Below, in pieces: positions 14,028 to 58,369 of a stretch of DNA of 64,000 nucleotides. Position numbers and translations under genes: made by a program. Source of the DNA: Candidatus Eisenbacteria bacterium (GTDB lineage: Bacteria; Eisenbacteria; RBG-16-71-46; SZUA-252); NCBI GenBank assembly GCA_005893305.1, contig VBOZ01000008.1:139172-203171 (forward strand), in the 5' to 3' direction. The notes beneath the pieces are model-generated. The model made no database searches. It had not been told where the DNA came from and saw only the letters and a list, made by a program, of their open reading frames with translations. Positions within the stretch are counted from its first letter, which is position 1; the number at the start of each line of letters is the position of its first letter.

Positions 14028-16547
14028 TCAGGTGAGCGTCACGATCGTGACGCCGGTTCCTCCTTCTCCAAGCTCTCCCAGACGGTATTCCTTGACCAGC
14101 GTGTTGGTCTGAAGCCAGCTCTTCATCCGCTCGCGAAGGATTCCCTTTCCCTTCCCGTGGATGATGCGGGCCCTCTCGAGGCCGCCCATGTGGGCGTCCT
14201 CGAGAAACCGCTCCACCGCGATGATCGCGTCGTCGGCCTCGAAGCCGCGGACGTCGATCTCGGTCTTGGCGTCGGGCCAATCGGCCGCCGCGGCCGCCGC
14301 CGCCCTGCCGGCGATTCCGCCGGTCGTCCTCTTCGTGGCGGTCGCGGCGCCACCGCTTGGGGCGCGGCGAAGTTGCGTCATCGGAAGCACGGCGGTCGCG
14401 CCGCCGATCCGCACCCGGACCTTGCCGTCCGCGTCGGGCGCGGTCAGCGCGGTCGCCTCGGCGCGCAACGTCGGAACGAACAGCCGATCCCCCGGCGCCA
14501 CGGAGGTGACCGGCTCGCCATTGCGAGCATCCGACGGCTCCGGCGCGTCCTCCCGCTCGATCGCGTCGGAGAGTCCCTTCGCCAGCCCGCGCGCTTCCTG
14601 GAGCGTCGCCGGCGTGGTCCGTTTCTCGGCCCGCATCTTCTTCCGGTAGTCGTCGATCTGGCTCTCGAGCTGGTTCAGGAGCTCCCTCCGCGCCGAGAGC
14701 TCCGCCTGCTTCCGCTCCCTCCGCTCGGACTCCAGCCGGTCCAGCGCCGCCGTGAGCTCCGATTCCCTCGCGGCAAGCTGGCCGCGGGTGCGCTCAAGCG
14801 CCGCGCGCTCGTCGCGGGCCTCCTCGCGCAGCCGCCCCAGCTCCTCGAGAAGGCGATTCAGGTCGCGCTCGCCCTGCGGCAAGAGCGCGCGTGCACGATC
14901 GAGAACGCGCGCGTCCACCCCGAAGCGCTCCGCGACCTGGATCGCGCGGCTCCCACCCGGCACGCCGACGACCAGGCGGAAGAGCGGGCGGAGCGACGTC
15001 TCGTCGAACGCCATCGAGGCGTTCCTCACCCCGGCCGTCTCGTGCGCGAACGTCTTCAGCATCCCGTGATGCGTGGTGGCCACGCAGAGCGCGCGCCGCG
15101 CGAGCAAGGCCTCCAGCACCGCCTGCCCCAGCGCGGCCCCCTCGACCGGGTCGGTCCCGGAGCCGAGCTCGTCCAGGAGCACCAGGCTCCGCGGCGTCGC
15201 CTGCCCCAGCGCTTCGGACACGCGGCGAAGATGCGAGAGGAACGTGCTCACGTCCGATGAGATCGACTGCTCGTCGCCGATGTCGCAGATCACCCGATCG
15301 AACCAGGGGATCACGGTTCCTGCGGCGACAGGGATCGGAAGCCCCGCCGCGGCGAGCAGCGCCAGGAGCCCCACGGTCTTCATCGCGACGGTCTTTCCGC
15401 CCATGTTGGGCCCGGTCACGAGGAGCATCGGGTGCTCGTGATCGAGCTCCAAGTCGAGCGGAACGGGCGCCGCGCTCTCCCCTTTGCGGTGCCGCTCGAC
15501 GAGGATCGGGTGCCTTCCCTCGCGAATCCGGAGGCTCCGTTCCTCCACCAGCTCGGGAAGAGACGCCCGCGCGTCCACCGCCCACGCCGTGACCGCCTGC
15601 GCCGCGTCGATCCGCGCCAGCTCGGCGAAATTCCGCTCGAGGGCGGGCAGCTCGCGGTGCGCGCGCGCGGTCAGCTCGCGAAGGATCCGCTCGACCTCGC
15701 GAGCCTCGGCGAGCGCGTGCTCCGCCAGCTCACTGTTCCCCTCGGCCGCCTCGCGGGGCTCGACGAAGAGGCTCGCGCCGGAGCCGGAGTGCCCGACCAC
15801 CGTCCCGGGCACCAAGCGCCGGCTCCCCGACGGGATCGCGAGCACGTAGCGGCCGTCCCGCAGGGTCACAAAGCTCTCCGGCGCCGAAAGCCCGCGCTCG
15901 ATCGCCTCGAGCTTCGCCGCGAGCCGGGCCCGAAGCGTGCGGATCGCGCGCCGGATCTTGGAGAGCTCCGGGCTCGCGTCGTCTTTGACCTCGCCCGACG
16001 GATCGAGCGCGCGCGTGATCTCGCGATGAAGCGGATCGAGCGGATCCAAGGCCGAGAGCGCGCGATCGAGCGCGGGAGTTTCGCGCCGCGTCTTCCGATA
16101 CCAGGTCACGAGCGAGCGCACCTGATCGAGGAGAAGCGCGAAACTCCACAGCTCCTCTCCCCGGAGCGTCGCCCCTTCCGGCGCCAGGCGCGCCAGCTCG
16201 GGCCTCAGGTCGGGGGGCGCGGCGGGCGGCGGGGAATCCCCCTCCGCGTGACACGCCAGCAGATCGCCGTAAAGCTCCTGGGCGCCCCGTGCCGACTCCA
16301 GGCGTTCGTGCGGCCCGAGCGCGACGACCCGTTCGCGTCCCGGGACCGAGCGCGAGCGGGCCGCGATCGCCTCGAGCACGAGCGGAAGCTCGAGGACGGC
16401 GTGCGCGTGGTCGAGGACGCGTTCCTTTCTTGGCGTTTCCAATGGCGCCGCAGCGGGGCGCGAATTCGCGTCGGTAATGGCTGTACGTCCGGAGGTGCGG
16501 GTGGTAGCGAAGTGCCGACCCAGGAGGCGAACGGGAAACCGGCTCAT
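14028..16547 (-). CDS. mutS2: MutS2 family ATPase/nuclease with Smr domain
   Basis: 839 residues. Core and clamp helices are followed by Walker A TGPNMGGKT, Walker B VLLLDELGSGTDP and ATTHHGML. A coiled coil follows, and a C-terminal Smr domain has IDVRG and HGKGKGILRERM. MutS2 proteins act on branched DNA or on collided ribosomes rather than in mismatch repair. The start at ATG 16547 has GGGAGG six bases upstream. The gene sits between rpsU and dnaG. Length is somewhat above the usual 780-790, owing to the N-terminal tail and an Ala-rich insert before Smr. Confidence 0.95.
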   Translation of the reverse strand: MSRFPVRLLGRHFATTRTSGRTAITDANSRPAAAPLETPRKERVLDHAHAVLELPLVLEAIAARSRSVPGRERVVALGPHERLESARGAQELYGDLLACHAEGDSPPPAAPPDLRPELARLAPEGATLRGEELWSFALLLDQVRSLVTWYRKTRRETPALDRALSALDPLDPLHREITRALDPSGEVKDDASPELSKIRRAIRTLRARLAAKLEAIERGLSAPESFVTLRDGRYVLAIPSGSRRLVPGTVVGHSGSGASLFVEPREAAEGNSELAEHALAEAREVERILRELTARAHRELPALERNFAELARIDAAQAVTAWAVDARASLPELVEERSLRIREGRHPILVERHRKGESAAPVPLDLELDHEHPMLLVTGPNMGGKTVAMKTVGLLALLAAAGLPIPVAAGTVIPWFDRVICDIGDEQSISSDVSTFLSHLRRVSEALGQATPRSLVLLDELGSGTDPVEGAALGQAVLEALLARRALCVATTHHGMLKTFAHETAGVRNASMAFDETSLRPLFRLVVGVPGGSRAIQVAERFGVDARVLDRARALLPQGERDLNRLLEELGRLREEARDERAALERTRGQLAARESELTAALDRLESERRERKQAELSARRELLNQLESQIDDYRKKMRAEKRTTPATLQEARGLAKGLSDAIEREDAPEPSDARNGEPVTSVAPGDRLFVPTLRAEATALTAPDADGKVRVRIGGATAVLPMTQLRRAPSGGAATATKRTTGGIAGRAAAAAAADWPDAKTEIDVRGFEADDAIIAVERFLEDAHMGGLERARIIHGKGKGILRERMKSWLQTNTLVKEYRLGELGEGGTGVTIVTLT

Positions 16548-30140: not shown

Positions 30141-32351
30141 CTAGGCGAGGCGGCTGCGTCGATCGTTCTTGCCGCCGCCCCGGCGGTCCGGCTTCCCGCG
30201 GCGGTCGTGGTTCTCGCGGACGGGGAGGTAGATGCTCACGATGCTGCTCCAGTCGCCTTCGCTCCGGGCCCGGATCTCCCCGCCGTGCTCGCGGACGATC
30301 TGGTAGGCGACGGCCAATCCCACCCCGGCGCCGTACCGGCGCGAGGACGAAAACGGCACGAAGAGTCGATCGAGGCTCTCGCCCGGCGTCTTGGGTCCGT
30401 CATGCGCGATCTCGGCCTGGACGTGTCCGGCGCCGTTTCGCGTCTCGACGCGCAGGCGCCCGCCGCTCGGCACCTGATGCAGCGCGTACTGAAGGACGTT
30501 GACGAGCACCTGGCGCATCTTGTCGTTGTCGATGAGGAGGCTCGGGACGTCGGGAGAGAGTCTCTTCAGTAATCGCACCCGCCGCTTGACGAGCTCCTCG
30601 GACTGCGTTTCCAGCACTTCCTGCACGAGCGCGTTCAAGCTCTGGAGCTTGAGCCGCGGCCGCGTCATCTGCGCGAGCGAGAGCTGCTCCGTGAGAATCC
30701 GCTCGAGCCGCTCCGTCTCCCGGAGGATGATCTCGAGATACTCGCGGTTCGGGTCGTCCGGCCCGACGCTCCGAAGAACGCGCCGCGCGAAGCCCGTGAT
30801 GGCCGCGATCGGGTTCCGGATCTCCTGCGCGACCTGAATCCCCCGCTCTCCGACGACGGCGAGCTTCTCCGAGTGGCGGAGCTGTGCCTCGAGCTCGCGG
30901 ATTTTCCGATCGACCCGCGTGGCCGACGCCTCCGAGCCGTCCCGGATCGCCGCCAACGTAGCGAGGGACGCCGCCATCTCGGCGACCTGGATGTCCTCCG
31001 CGTCGAACGGCTCGGCGGGCTCGCCTCCGGCCCCGCCCTTTCGGACCACGAGCACCGCGCCCCGCAGCGCGTCGTCCGACCGAAGCGGGACGGCCAGCGC
31101 CGATCCCCACTCCTCCGGGAGCGTTCCCGGGAGCCTCGTGTCCGACCGCACGTCCTCCACCGCGATCGGGCGCGCGTCCGCGTCGAACCAGGTGCGCAGC
31201 TCCTCTCCGATTTCCGAGAGATCCCGGTCGGCCGCGGCCGGATCGCCCAGGGCCGCCGCCACCGTGAACCCTTCCGGCTCGGCGAGGGTCCACACCACCC
31301 CGATCTGGCCGCCCGTGGCGGGGAGGAACGCGCGCAGCGCGGCTTCGGGCCAGGCCTCGGCGCGGGACGTCTTGAGCGTCACGACGGCGAGATCGAGCAG
31401 CGCCCGGGTTCCCGCCCCCCGGCGGCGGGAAAGAGCGAGGAGACCCGAGGAATCGAGCGCGATTCCCGCCTGCGACGCGACGACGCTCAGGAGCTCCATT
31501 TGATCCGACGTCCAACCCGCGATCCCCGGCGCCGCCGACAGCACGAGCAGCCCCCGGACCCGCTCCCGACCGAAGACGGGGAGAATGGCGGCCGGGCTGT
31601 CGGGCAGATGCTCGACCAGAAGGGTCGGCAGCCTGAGCTCGCGGTTCGGACGCGTGACCACCGCGGTGCGCCCGTCGAACACGGCGTCCGAGAGGAGATC
31701 CTGATCTTGATCGAGCGGAATGAGGGTGTCGCGGAGACGCTCGAACACCGCGCCGTCGAAGATGCCGGCAGCGGCCAACGGCTCCACGTCCAGGTAGCCC
31801 TCGGGCCCCGCGATCCCCGTGTCCAGGTCGGCCCTGCGGAAGGAGGCCGCGAGCGCGAGCCCTGCGGGATCGGACTTCACCTCGAAGAACAGGAGCGTGT
31901 CGATGACCTCGGCAAACGCTCCCGCGAGGGCGCCAAGCAGGAGCTGCGCCGTGCGTCGAGGGCTCGTCGACGTGTGGAGGAGCGGGAGCGCGCGGAGGAG
32001 GAGCGCGACCGACTGGTATCGCCCGTCCTCTTCGACCTCGGCTTCGGGGCTCCTTCGGCCTTCCTCCTCGAGGAGGCGGAAGAGAAGCTCCTGCGTCGGC
32101 AGCACGCCGGACGAGCCCGCCGGGACGCTGCCGGCCAGCTCCACCGCCCCTTGGAGGCGCGCGCAGTGAACGCAATCCTTGGTGAACCGGCTCTCGAAAT
32201 CGGGACGCGGCTCGAACGGACAGGGGCGCGGCTCGAGGTAACAGGCGCCCGCGGCGGCCCCTTCGGGGGCCCCGATCCTTCGCCCGGCGTACCGTTTCCA
32301 TGCGAGGACAAGCTGCTCTTCAAGTCGTGCGGTGGCGGACGATCGTTTCAT
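30141..32351 (-). CDS. GAF-domain sensor histidine kinase homologue lacking the phospho-accepting His
   Basis: 736 residues, no membrane helices. An N-terminal cluster Cys37, Cys44, Cys60, Cys63 (CYLEPRPC ... CVHC) could bind a metal. GAF-like domains occupy about 130-300 and 320-480. The HisKA segment reads VAQEIRNPIAAITGF: the expected His of HEIRNP is Gln509 (codon CAG). In the ATPase domain the N-box is VLVNVLQYALHQ, where NA is replaced by YA, and the DxGxG box is AHDGPK, while GAGVGLAVAYQIV remains. It may be a pseudokinase that senses a ligand through GAF and signals by binding, or it may pair with another kinase. No response regulator is adjacent. Confidence 0.82.
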   Translation of the reverse strand: MKRSSATARLEEQLVLAWKRYAGRRIGAPEGAAAGACYLEPRPCPFEPRPDFESRFTKDCVHCARLQGAVELAGSVPAGSSGVLPTQELLFRLLEEEGRRSPEAEVEEDGRYQSVALLLRALPLLHTSTSPRRTAQLLLGALAGAFAEVIDTLLFFEVKSDPAGLALAASFRRADLDTGIAGPEGYLDVEPLAAAGIFDGAVFERLRDTLIPLDQDQDLLSDAVFDGRTAVVTRPNRELRLPTLLVEHLPDSPAAILPVFGRERVRGLLVLSAAPGIAGWTSDQMELLSVVASQAGIALDSSGLLALSRRRGAGTRALLDLAVVTLKTSRAEAWPEAALRAFLPATGGQIGVVWTLAEPEGFTVAAALGDPAAADRDLSEIGEELRTWFDADARPIAVEDVRSDTRLPGTLPEEWGSALAVPLRSDDALRGAVLVVRKGGAGGEPAEPFDAEDIQVAEMAASLATLAAIRDGSEASATRVDRKIRELEAQLRHSEKLAVVGERGIQVAQEIRNPIAAITGFARRVLRSVGPDDPNREYLEIILRETERLERILTEQLSLAQMTRPRLKLQSLNALVQEVLETQSEELVKRRVRLLKRLSPDVPSLLIDNDKMRQVLVNVLQYALHQVPSGGRLRVETRNGAGHVQAEIAHDGPKTPGESLDRLFVPFSSSRRYGAGVGLAVAYQIVREHGGEIRARSEGDWSSIVSIYLPVRENHDRRGKPDRRGGGKNDRRSRLA

Positions 32352-32416: not shown

Positions 32417-32445
32417 TTGATTTACGGCACCCGTGGGCTTTATCT
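32417..32445 (+). promoter_or_regulatory. possible promoter of the DUF3467 gene
   Basis: TTGATT, 17 bases, TTATCT on the plus strand, 48 bases before the ATG at 32493. CTCAAG (32411-32416) and CTTGAG (32444-32449) form an inverted pair around it. Weak match; offered because this is an isolated plus-strand gene. Confidence 0.35.
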
Positions 32446-32492
32446 TGAGCAGGGAGTCTGCGGATAACTATTTGGGACGAGGAGGCTTACGG

Positions 32493-32798
32493 ATGGAAGC
32501 CAAGCGGCAGGAACAACCCCCGCAAATCAACATGGAGATCGGCGAGCGGGAGGCGGAGGGGATCTACTCGAACTTCGTCGTCATCAGTCACTCGCTATCG
32601 GAGTTCGTGCTCGATTTCGCGCGGGTTCTTCCGGGCACGCCGAAGAGCAAGGTGTTCGCGAGGATCGTCATGACCCCGCCGAACGTGCGAGCGCTGCTTC
32701 ACGCGCTCGAGACCAATATCGGGAAATACGAGGGGCAGTTCGGCAAGATCCGCACGCTGAACGAGGGTCAGTCGAAGGAGATCGGCTTCACGTCCTGA
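32493..32798 (+). CDS. DUF3467 family protein
   Basis: 101 residues from ATG 32493 with GAGGAGG seven bases upstream. The sequence GIYSNFVVISHSLSEFVLDF ... PPNVRALLHALETNIGKYE is the whole DUF3467 domain, a small family of unknown function. It is one of only two plus-strand genes in the window; its 3' end overlaps the end of the convergent acyltransferase gene by 11 bases. Confidence 0.88.
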   Translation: MEAKRQEQPPQINMEIGEREAEGIYSNFVVISHSLSEFVLDFARVLPGTPKSKVFARIVMTPPNVRALLHALETNIGKYEGQFGKIRTLNEGQSKEIGFTS

Positions 32799-55203: not shown

Positions 55204-56586
55204 CTACAGCTCCGCTTCGATGCCGTCCTTCTCTTGAACCAGGCCGTAGGAGAGAAGCTTTCGGTAGAGCGTGGAGGGGTTGATCCCCAGGATCTCCGAG
55301 GCCCGCTTTTTCTGTCCGCTCGTATGGTGGAGCACCTTCATGATGTACTCCCGCTCGAGCTCGTCGAGCGTCATGGTCGGATTGTCGATCACGAGGCTCC
55401 CGCGCCCCTTGTTGCCCTGGAGCACCCGCTCCGGTAGATCCTCGGGAGTGATCACGCCGTTTTCCGTCAGGATCACCGCCCGCTCGATCACGTTTTCCAG
55501 CTCCCGCACGTTGCCCGGCCAGTCGTACGCGAGCAGCGCGTCGCGGGTCTCCTTGTTGAGCGTCTTGGGCTCCTTGCCGACGGTCAGCTTTTTCAGGAAG
55601 TGCTCGACCATCTCCTCGATGTCTTCCTTCCGCTCCCGAAGGGCCGGCAAGCGGATCTGGATCACGTTGAGCCGGTAGAAGAGGTCCGCCCGGAAGCGGT
55701 TCTCCGAGACCGCCCGCTCGAGATCGGCGTTCGTCGCGGCGATGAGCCTCACGTCGATCTTGCGCGGCTTGGTTCCCCCGACGGGGATGATCTCCCGCTC
55801 CTGAAGCGCCCGGAGCAGCTTGACCTGCGTCGCGGGCAGCGTCTCTCCCACTTCGTCCAGGAAGAAGGAGCCGCCGCCGGCCACCGCGAGGAGTCCCTCC
55901 TGGTCTCGCACCGCCCCCGTGAAGGAGCCCTTCACGTGACCGAACAGGTTCGACTCGAGCAAATCTTTAGGGAGCGCCCCGCAGTTGATCGAGACGAACG
56001 GGCCGTCGGCCCGCAGGCTCAGGTAGTGGATCCGCTTCGCGATCAGCTCTTTCCCGGTGCCGCTCTCCCCGACGATCAGGATCGTCGAGTCGGAATCAGC
56101 CACCTTCTCCACGAGCTTCAGGACCTTCTGGATCTGCTCGCTGTGGCCGATGATCTCCTTCGTGTCGTCGGTTTTCTTCAGCTGGCGCTTCAGGAGGACG
56201 TTCTCCGACTGAACGCGCCGCATCGCGAGCGCGTTCTTGATGACCAGCCGGATCTCGTCGTTCTTGGCGCTCTTCTCGAGGTACTGGAAGGCGCCCCGGT
56301 TCAGGGCGTCGATCGCCGATTTCTGGGAAGCGAATGCCGTTCGGATGACAACCGGGATGCTCGAGTCGATCTTCTTGACGCCGGAAAGGACCCCGAGTCC
56401 GTCAATCTCGCCGGGCATCTTGATGTCGGTGACCACGACGTCGAAATTCTCCTCCTCCGCCTTCTGCAGGGCATCCCGGCCGGAGCGGGCCACGTGTACC
56501 TCGTAGCCCTCCTTGGAGAGGAGGATCGAGAGAAACTGAACCATGCTCTCTTCGTCGTCTACGATCAGGATCTTCTCGCCGGCCAC
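55204..56586 (-). CDS. pilR: NtrC-family sigma-54 response regulator PilR
   Basis: 460 residues. Receiver domain (ILIVDDEESM, phospho-Asp in VVVTDIKMPG), AAA+ domain with Walker A GESGTGKE, the sigma-54 contact loop as GSFTGA (usual GAFTGA), Walker B GGSFFLDEVGE, and a Fis-type HTH (KKRASEILGINPSTLYRKL). It activates sigma-54 promoters; the pilA, pilM and pilB promoters here are likely targets. Directly after pilS. Confidence 0.94.
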   Translation of the reverse strand: MAGEKILIVDDEESMVQFLSILLSKEGYEVHVARSGRDALQKAEEENFDVVVTDIKMPGEIDGLGVLSGVKKIDSSIPVVIRTAFASQKSAIDALNRGAFQYLEKSAKNDEIRLVIKNALAMRRVQSENVLLKRQLKKTDDTKEIIGHSEQIQKVLKLVEKVADSDSTILIVGESGTGKELIAKRIHYLSLRADGPFVSINCGALPKDLLESNLFGHVKGSFTGAVRDQEGLLAVAGGGSFFLDEVGETLPATQVKLLRALQEREIIPVGGTKPRKIDVRLIAATNADLERAVSENRFRADLFYRLNVIQIRLPALRERKEDIEEMVEHFLKKLTVGKEPKTLNKETRDALLAYDWPGNVRELENVIERAVILTENGVITPEDLPERVLQGNKGRGSLVIDNPTMTLDELEREYIMKVLHHTSGQKKRASEILGINPSTLYRKLLSYGLVQEKDGIEAEL

Positions 56587-56611
56587 AGGACCACCCTCGC
56601 TCTAGATAGAG

Positions 56612-58369
56612 TTACGCCGCGTGCGCGACGCTTCGCGCCGGATTGTCGGCCTGCGGCAACCACAGACGCATCGTGGTCCCCTCACCGATCCGGCTCTCGA
56701 CCTCAAAGTTTCCGCCATGGCGCTCTACGATCCGGTTGGCGATCGCCAGACCCAGACCGGTCCCGCCCTGCTTCGTTGAGAAAAACGGCTCGAATACCTG
56801 CGCGACGTCCTTGTCGCCGATCCCCGTCCCCGTGTCCGCGACTTCCATCACGACGCGCGGCCCCCCCGCTCGTCCCCAGGCGCCGGGCGTCCGCCGCTCT
56901 TCGCGGATCCGCACCGTCACGTTGCCCGTTCCCTCGATGGCCTCGAAGGCGTTGATCAGGAGATTCGTCATCACCTGCTTCATCTGGTCGAAGTCCGCGC
57001 GGACCCAGACCGGCACGTTCGGACCCTCGAGCAAAACCTTCTTTCCCTTCCCGGCGCTTTCGTGCCGGCGCGCGATCTCGATCGATTCGGACGCCAGGGC
57101 CGCCAGCTCGACCTTCTCGGTCTTGAGCGGGCGCTCCCGCGCGTACTCGAGCAGCTCCGAGACGAACCGCTCGAGCCGCTCCGACTCCCGCACGACCAGG
57201 TCCAGGAGCCGCGCGTTCTCTCCCTCGACGTGGAGCTCCTTCTGAAGCACCTCGACCGAGCCGGTGATCGGGTTGAGACAGTTCCGGATCTCGTGCGCGA
57301 TGCCGGCCGAGAGCTCCCCGATCGCCGCCAGGGTCTCCCCGCGGCGGATGCGATCCTCGAGGGCCTTCACCTCCGAGAGATCCTGGAAGAGCGCGATCAC
57401 TCCGCGCCGCTCCCCGGATGCGCCCAGGAGAAGGCTCGTCGAGATTCCCAGCGGCACCGTTCGGCCGTTCGCGGTCAGCACCGTCACCTCGTATCGAGTC
57501 CCTTCCGTGCCCCGCTCCAACGCTTCACGGAGCCGTGTCGAGAACGCTTCGAGCCCCGGCCCGAACGTCTCCAGATAGTGGCGTCCTTGCACCGCCTTGG
57601 TCGGCACCGCCAGGATCTCGGATGCCGCCCGGTTCCAGTGCCGCACCGAGCCGCCTGCGTCGATCGTCGCGAGCCCGCTCGAGAGGTTCTCGAGAATCGT
57701 CTCCGTATCGAACAGTGCCCGGTTCAGCTGGGCCCGCGCCTCGTCCAGCGCCAGCCTGCCCTCGCGGAGCGACCGCCCGATCGCGCCGCCGATCGCCCCC
57801 ACGATGAAGAGGAGCGGCAGATACAGGATCAGACGGAGCCGGAGCGCCGGCTCGCTCAACCGCTCGGTCAGCCCGTACGCCATCGGCGGCACCATCCCGC
57901 CGACCTCGGCCACGTAGAACGCTCCGTACGCCAACCCGGCCGCGGCCGCGAAGAGGAGCCCGCCCCTCACGGTGAGAAAGATCCCGCCCATCAGAGGCGC
58001 CAGCAGGAAGAGCGGCGCGAACTGGCTGGACGTCCCCCCGGTGAAGAGGAGGAGATACGAGATCACCGCGACGTCGACCAGGAACTGCGTCGTGAGAAGG
58101 GCGTTCACCTCCGCCCCGCTCTTCGCCGCGTGGTGGTACGCCACGGCCAGCCCCGCCGAGAGCGCCACCAAGAACACGAACGGGTAATGCCGAGTCAGGC
58201 TCAGGCCGGTGTCCGAGAACGCGACGGCCATCGCGGCCACCAGCGTGATGAGCGCCATGCGGCCGAGAATGACCGCCTTCACCGCCTCGCGAAGCCGCGG
58301 TTCCCCATCCGCCTTCGTTGTCGGGCCGGATCCGGCCTGCGGGCGACTATTTCCCCCCAGCGACCACAT
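56612..58369 (-). CDS. pilS: sensor histidine kinase PilS
   Basis: 585 residues. Six hydrophobic helices (about 35-190), a PAS domain (about 225-335), HisKA with GIAHEIRNCLNPITG (intact His), and an ATPase domain with NLLINAFEAIEG, DTGTGIG and GGTGLGLAIANRIVERHGG. It phosphorylates PilR, in other bacteria in response to pilin level in the membrane. Overlaps the end of pilC by 23 bases; a later start is possible. Confidence 0.92.
   Translation of the reverse strand: MWSLGGNSRPQAGSGPTTKADGEPRLREAVKAVILGRMALITLVAAMAVAFSDTGLSLTRHYPFVFLVALSAGLAVAYHHAAKSGAEVNALLTTQFLVDVAVISYLLLFTGGTSSQFAPLFLLAPLMGGIFLTVRGGLLFAAAAGLAYGAFYVAEVGGMVPPMAYGLTERLSEPALRLRLILYLPLLFIVGAIGGAIGRSLREGRLALDEARAQLNRALFDTETILENLSSGLATIDAGGSVRHWNRAASEILAVPTKAVQGRHYLETFGPGLEAFSTRLREALERGTEGTRYEVTVLTANGRTVPLGISTSLLLGASGERRGVIALFQDLSEVKALEDRIRRGETLAAIGELSAGIAHEIRNCLNPITGSVEVLQKELHVEGENARLLDLVVRESERLERFVSELLEYARERPLKTEKVELAALASESIEIARRHESAGKGKKVLLEGPNVPVWVRADFDQMKQVMTNLLINAFEAIEGTGNVTVRIREERRTPGAWGRAGGPRVVMEVADTGTGIGDKDVAQVFEPFFSTKQGGTGLGLAIANRIVERHGGNFEVESRIGEGTTMRLWLPQADNPARSVAHAA

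Follow-up and report, generated by a model that had tools for sequence, protein, structure and literature searches.

A family of probable pseudo-histidine kinases and the repeated, stepwise dismantling of one two-component pair across the phylum Eisenbacteria

Pseudo-histidine kinases are already known as a kind. To our knowledge, they have usually been met as single finished cases, such as DivL and RetS. DivL, which is devoid of kinase activity, is a binding partner of DivK~P (PMC4211667). RetS, whose CA domain is degenerate, acts on GacS by means that include transmitter phosphatase activity (PMC5992135). For the Eisenbacteria, our literature search found only a passing co-mention with two-component systems. 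Here we describe a new family of pseudo-histidine kinases from this phylum, in which one two-component pair has been dismantled repeatedly and the steps can be resolved. The family was recognized in a 64,000-nucleotide stretch of a Candidatus Eisenbacteria contig, called the window below. The host is represented by a 2.7-Mb draft genome; its family is labelled f1, and other families of the phylum bear other f numbers.

The gene occupies 30141..32351 on the (-) strand, as do all features of its protein given below, and was defined by its ORF, Pfam matches and neighbourhood mapping. It encodes a pseudo-histidine kinase of 736 residues with a GAF-GAF-DHp-CA layout and has no adjoining response regulator (RR) gene. 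Two GAF domains (Pfam GAF_2, residues 213-300, 31452..31715; Pfam GAF, residues 340-467, 30951..31334) are followed by a HisKA/DHp domain (residues 507-563, 30663..30833, 40 bits), placed by Pfam and by structure-library alignments, and by a HATPase_c/CA domain (residues 608-712, 30216..30530, 58.5 bits). All four Pfam matches exceed the curated cut-offs. The histidine kinase fold is recognizable from sequence, with homology to ZraS, ThkA and DivL in alignment with solved kinases; AlphaFold2, run on the DHp-CA part with an alignment of 2 sequences, gave a mean pLDDT of 43. The protein ends in a basic tail (residues 714-736, 30144..30212) with three xRR motifs of the form [D/E/N/G]RR, and three such copies are present in 39/39 orthologs. 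At the other end, residues 37-63 (32163..32243) hold four cysteines, C37, C44, C60 and C63, invariant in the eight f1 members and spaced C-x6-C-x15-C-x2-C. This N-terminal segment is an addition peculiar to f1, absent from the other families, and might form a zinc or iron-sulphur site.

A first-pass annotation of the window had read the H-box as VAQEIRNP with Gln at the phospho-His position, and had reported that the second Asn of the N-box was lost and the DxGxG box altered while the dimerisation and GXGXGL-like regions remained. Each of these readings was borne out. The CAG codon at 30825..30827 encodes Gln509, and its column is occupied by His in the structure-library alignments with ThkA and ZraS; Glu510 (H+1) and Asn513 (H+4) are kept. 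Ortholog alignment placed Tyr622, within NVLQY, at the Mg-chelating Asn of the N-box (30486..30488) and revealed a degenerate G1 box, A-H650-D-G-P-K654 versus DxGxG (H650-K654, 30390..30404). The same alignment showed a retained G2 box, GAGVGL (residues 674-679, 30315..30332); the F-box and the RNP that follows the H position are also kept, and the dimerisation region is conserved. Measured against an active HisKA kinase, the protein has an H-box without a phosphorylatable His, an N-box without Asn and a G1 box without DxGxG. These residues strongly suggest that it does not autophosphorylate and that it would bind ATP-Mg poorly or not at all. We rejected loss of the first G1 Asp as proof of kinase death. 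The solved kinase ThkA carries Asn at this position, so that the loss alone proves nothing of the kind, and Asn is found there in all eight RR-bearing orthologs described below. The window protein has changed further than Asn at this position, to His650.

The phospho-His is seldom lost in the host genome; only two others among the approximately 35 DHp-bearing HATPase_c proteins examined apparently lack it. L107 (G000:C14, match 103620-103949) reads TSELKSP, apparently with Ser at the phospho-His position, and L112 (G000:C19, match 15552-15857) reads ASASEEVLEP, apparently with Glu. The N-box Asn and the G1 Asp are present in each of them. The window itself contains an ordinary kinase at 55207-57400 (-) with the His intact (AHEIRN, also L089), followed by the ORF of an NtrC-type regulator.

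Whole-genome searches of 47 genomes of the class and phylum, combined with neighbourhood mapping, identified a syntenic ortholog in 39. In nearly all cases the gene has a DUF3467 gene as its divergent neighbour, and where the contigs extend far enough it is flanked by a PGM-GlmS-SelD-LepA block and an LpxL-DprA-HEAT-Obg-IDH block. No ortholog was found in the ninth f1 genome (G007), where an assembly gap is possible. The orthologs form one clade with respect to the other kinases of the host genome in a DHp-CA tree (SH-aLRT 100), and their own tree is broadly congruent with that of the neighbouring genes, which argues for vertical inheritance. A contig scan for homologues outside the phylum returned only L039, the same match as G002, a genome of the same genus, and two weak generic matches.

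Eight orthologs have both the phospho-His and the N-box Asn: one each from f2, f4, f10 and f11, three from f6, and G025 of f7. They carry Asn at the first G1 position and are about 34-46% identical to the window protein over the aligned part. Each of the eight is followed directly downstream, on the same strand, by a stand-alone receiver gene of about 122 codons, whose product contains the conserved stretch VVINSAYxxFKxxFxxWxAxAYVVKSS. Receivers of this family, with its unusual conserved end, lie beside intact GAF kinases at L053:8760-9134, L055:8816-9184, L056:8576-8944, L147:6198-6575 and elsewhere. All eight f1 genomes that yielded the gene share the Gln, the Tyr and the HDGPK box. Across the readable orthologs outside the set of eight with His and Asn, the His position is occupied by Gln, Glu, Arg, Ala, Leu, Asp or Ser, save in G035 and G037 of f8, where the His persists but the N-box Asn and the RR have gone. 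G015 could not be read there: its DHp region (L081) is out of frame, probably through a frameshift or an assembly error, and its CA part is 58-59% identical to that of the window protein.

The RR gene is absent at 28 orthologous loci, comprising eight of f1, all 16 of f8, two of f7 and two of f9; at a few of the f8 loci (G044, G045 and G036) the contig stops shortly beyond the kinase gene. An adjoining RR gene, as expected of a two-component histidine kinase, is found neither in the window nor in the seven other f1 genomes. No replacement receiver adjoins the window kinase, which has tRNA-Phe, tRNA-Thr and a phosphohexomutase gene on its 3' side. Relocation of the RR was considered and ruled out by searching the 47 genomes with a receiver profile, which found no relocated receiver, nor any in G044, G045 and G036: the best f1 and f8 matches scored at most 101 bits, versus at least 164 for the true family, a level reached only alongside an intact kinase, and sit in longer ORFs of about 260-950 residues. 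The RR has been lost from these genomes and not moved elsewhere in them.

Intermediate states were found in f9. G029 has Glu at the His position, Asp in the N-box and an apparently intact receiver. In G033 the His position is Gln and the acidic pair of the receiver reads EG; in G017 the corresponding residues are Leu and EP. Parsimony required three changes for His and N-box together, four for the RR and five for the His. The correlation between the state of the kinase and that of the RR rests on three independent contrasts. All three point the expected way, but they are too few for significance (sign test p 0.25). A tally of six independent losses comes down to at least three once it is considered that f1 and f8 are sisters in the DHp-CA tree and that His-Gln reversals are possible. 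Sequence comparison thus indicates that the pair has been dismantled at least three times, with the sensor, the fold and the triple Arg-Arg tail kept.

The catalytically dead DHp-CA module is the part of the protein under the strongest purifying selection. Mean pairwise identity among the eight f1 members is 77% in DHp and 84% in CA, versus 41-58% in the GAF domains and the N-terminus. For the closest f1 pair (G006/G003, dS about 0.48), dN/dS is 0.009 in DHp, 0.03 in CA and 0.11-0.14 in the GAF domains; the replacement of the phospho-His is itself conserved under this selection, with Gln in eight of eight. We also scored, in 27 RR-less orthologs, the 69 columns of residues 478-736 that are invariant in the eight RR-bearing ones. 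The His was kept in two, the N-box Asn in four and the G1 Asn in none, while the median retention of the other invariant columns was 93%, and 27/27 have Trp701, HGGE and the six tail arginines. The four catalytic columns differed from the rest with a Mann-Whitney p of 0.002, computed on sequences that are not independent. Needs of folding and dimerisation alone could account for part of the DHp-CA conservation.

The conserved neighbour, a DUF3467 gene (86.9 bits), is transcribed divergently from 32493..32798 (+). Its ORF is listed from GTG 32433, but ATG 32493 is the codon preceded by AGGAGG at 32480 and by a promoter-like element. This element, TTGATTTACGGCA-N11-TATCTTGAG at the spacing seen in the window (32417..32449, (+), directed towards DUF3467), is invariant in the eight f1 genomes, and TTGATTTACGGCA...TATCTTGAG was not seen in the other families. 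Its 10-mer core, TTGATTTACG, occurs once in the 2.7-Mb genome. The DUF3467 gene adjoins the kinase gene in nearly all orthologous loci, whether the kinase is intact or not. In the literature we found DUF3467 mentioned only in work on chlorhexidine and Porphyromonas gingivalis.

Since the assemblies are draft metagenomes and the frame is disrupted in the DHp region of one ortholog (G015), the altered boxes might be put down to sequencing error, assembly error or a recent pseudogene. The first-pass annotation had argued against a single sequencing error, and had held that close homologues with an intact His and N-box would point to local error or recent decay. The same Gln/Tyr/His/Lys set recurs in 8/8 family members from independent assemblies and across clear sequence divergence, which argues against assembly error, and orthologs with both motifs intact occur only in other families, all with an adjoining RR. 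The ORF is open in 38/39 orthologs and dN/dS is far below 1. With eight assemblies sharing the changes and dN/dS this low, we discarded error and decay as extremely improbable. The annotation's suggestion of a GAF-sensing pseudokinase has become the best reading, given a Gln509 conserved in 8/8. The catalytic residues and the RR have gone and yet the rest is almost unchanged, so that the protein probably grips other proteins and does not transfer phosphate; we lean towards an orphan pseudo-histidine kinase that acts by docking, in the manner of DivL and RetS. The ancestor would have been a GAF-GAF histidine kinase with a stand-alone CheY-like receiver encoded directly downstream. In f1 and at least twice more in the phylum, as the comparison shows, the phospho-His, the N-box Asn that chelates Mg and the G1 residue of the adenine site were replaced and the receiver gene was lost, leaving in the window a protein very probably unable to autophosphorylate. 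Its two GAF domains may have kept the ability to detect a ligand or partner and, by way of the dimeric DHp helices, to alter how DHp-CA is shaped or exposed; the strongly conserved DHp-CA surface and the triple-RR tail would then bind and modulate another kinase or receiver.

The main rival to docking is that the protein works solely as a phosphatase: making no phospho-His, it would dephosphorylate a receiver through Asn513 at H+4, in the E/D-x-x-N of DHp helix 1, with GAF ligands switching the activity on or off. It owes this rank to CrdS, in which most of the phosphatase activity survives the H371A mutation (the half-life of CrdA~P is 2.6 min, and 53.5 for CrdA~P alone) but is lost in the H+4 mutant, N375A (PMC3510030); RetS, too, is a transmitter phosphatase despite its degenerate CA (PMC5992135). 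Asn513 places in the window protein the Thr/Asn that the HisKA E/DxxN/T phosphatase motif has at H+4. The residue is Asn in 8/8 f1 members, all of which keep QE/QD-x-R-N-P, and Asn or Thr in 22/27 RR-less orthologs, of which only two keep the His. The conservation of H+4 does not, however, exceed that of conserved columns on average, in several RR-less orthologs the residue is Ala, His, Gln or Val, and the cognate receiver is gone; moreover, the phosphatase of PleC needs its His (PMC3510030) and DivL is without phosphatase activity (PMC4211667). We hold a phosphatase-only role to be unlikely. The CA pocket might instead have taken on a new task: with G1 occupied by His and the N-box by Tyr, His or Phe, it would bind another small molecule, or be closed off, and act as an additional sensory or allosteric site. 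The change from Asn to His at G1 in separate lineages (f1/f8 and f9), the prevalence of Tyr, His or Phe at the N-box Asn in RR-less orthologs, and the retained G2 and F-boxes are what such a pocket would lead one to expect; but His and Tyr are perhaps simply the easiest replacements of Asn (single-base AAY to CAY or TAY), and we consider repurposing improbable. The protein could also supply half of a working kinase, as a heterodimer with an active partner, giving or taking phosphate in trans, or by phosphorylation of another residue. The conserved DHp dimerisation region would permit this and kinase-kinase interaction has a precedent in RetS-GacS (PMC5992135), but neither half of the reaction is left unaffected: there is no acceptor His (Gln509), and neither an N-box Asn nor a normal G1 to position Mg-ATP. 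We consider this reading very improbable.

A broader and rather doubtful reading is that a complete histidine kinase-RR pair has turned several times, independently, within one phylum into a phosphorylation-independent switch, with output through the dead DHp-CA and the triple-RR tail, possibly onto the DUF3467 protein. With these parts as the output, the kinase fold itself, and not phosphotransfer, might have been the conserved function from the start. One syntenic locus presents the steps side by side, from His kinase with receiver, through His-less kinase with intact receiver and kinases with eroded receivers, to receiver-less pseudokinases. With living and dead orthologs matched in this way, one can test what role is left to a histidine kinase fold that no longer transfers phosphate, and which step comes first when a two-component system dies.

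Among known proteins, the active kinase ThkA of T. maritima (PDB 3a0r) is the second-best PDB sequence match (E 2e-26). It has an Asn-type G1 box (NSGPPIP), as in the His-bearing orthologs, and both the His and the N-box, whereas the window protein has neither. The G010 pair of family f3 (L147) consists of a related GAF-HisKA-HATPase kinase with an RR of the same family directly downstream; this kinase differs in that its H, N, G1 and G2 boxes are fully canonical, in the lack of a triple-RR tail, and in its location at another locus without the DUF3467 neighbourhood. With DivL of Caulobacter crescentus (PDB 4q20), the window protein shares the HisKA-HATPase_c module by sequence (phmmer E 9.5e-17), a replaced phospho-His whose replacement is conserved within the family, and a multi-sensor N-terminus. 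In DivL, however, the His site is occupied by Tyr and the N, G1, F and G2 boxes are all present (PMC4211667), and it uses PAS sensors in the alphaproteobacterial CtrA pathway. The window protein, with Gln at that site, the N-box and G1 lost, GAF sensors, a triple-RR tail and an Eisenbacteria host, is not DivL proper. RetS of Pseudomonas aeruginosa (PDB 6dk7/6dk8) retains its H-box, which contains HExxT, and carries two receiver domains (PMC5992135), in contrast to the window protein, which has no His and no receiver; the two are alike in their degenerate catalysis and, as we propose for the window protein, in acting on other signalling proteins and not on a cognate RR.
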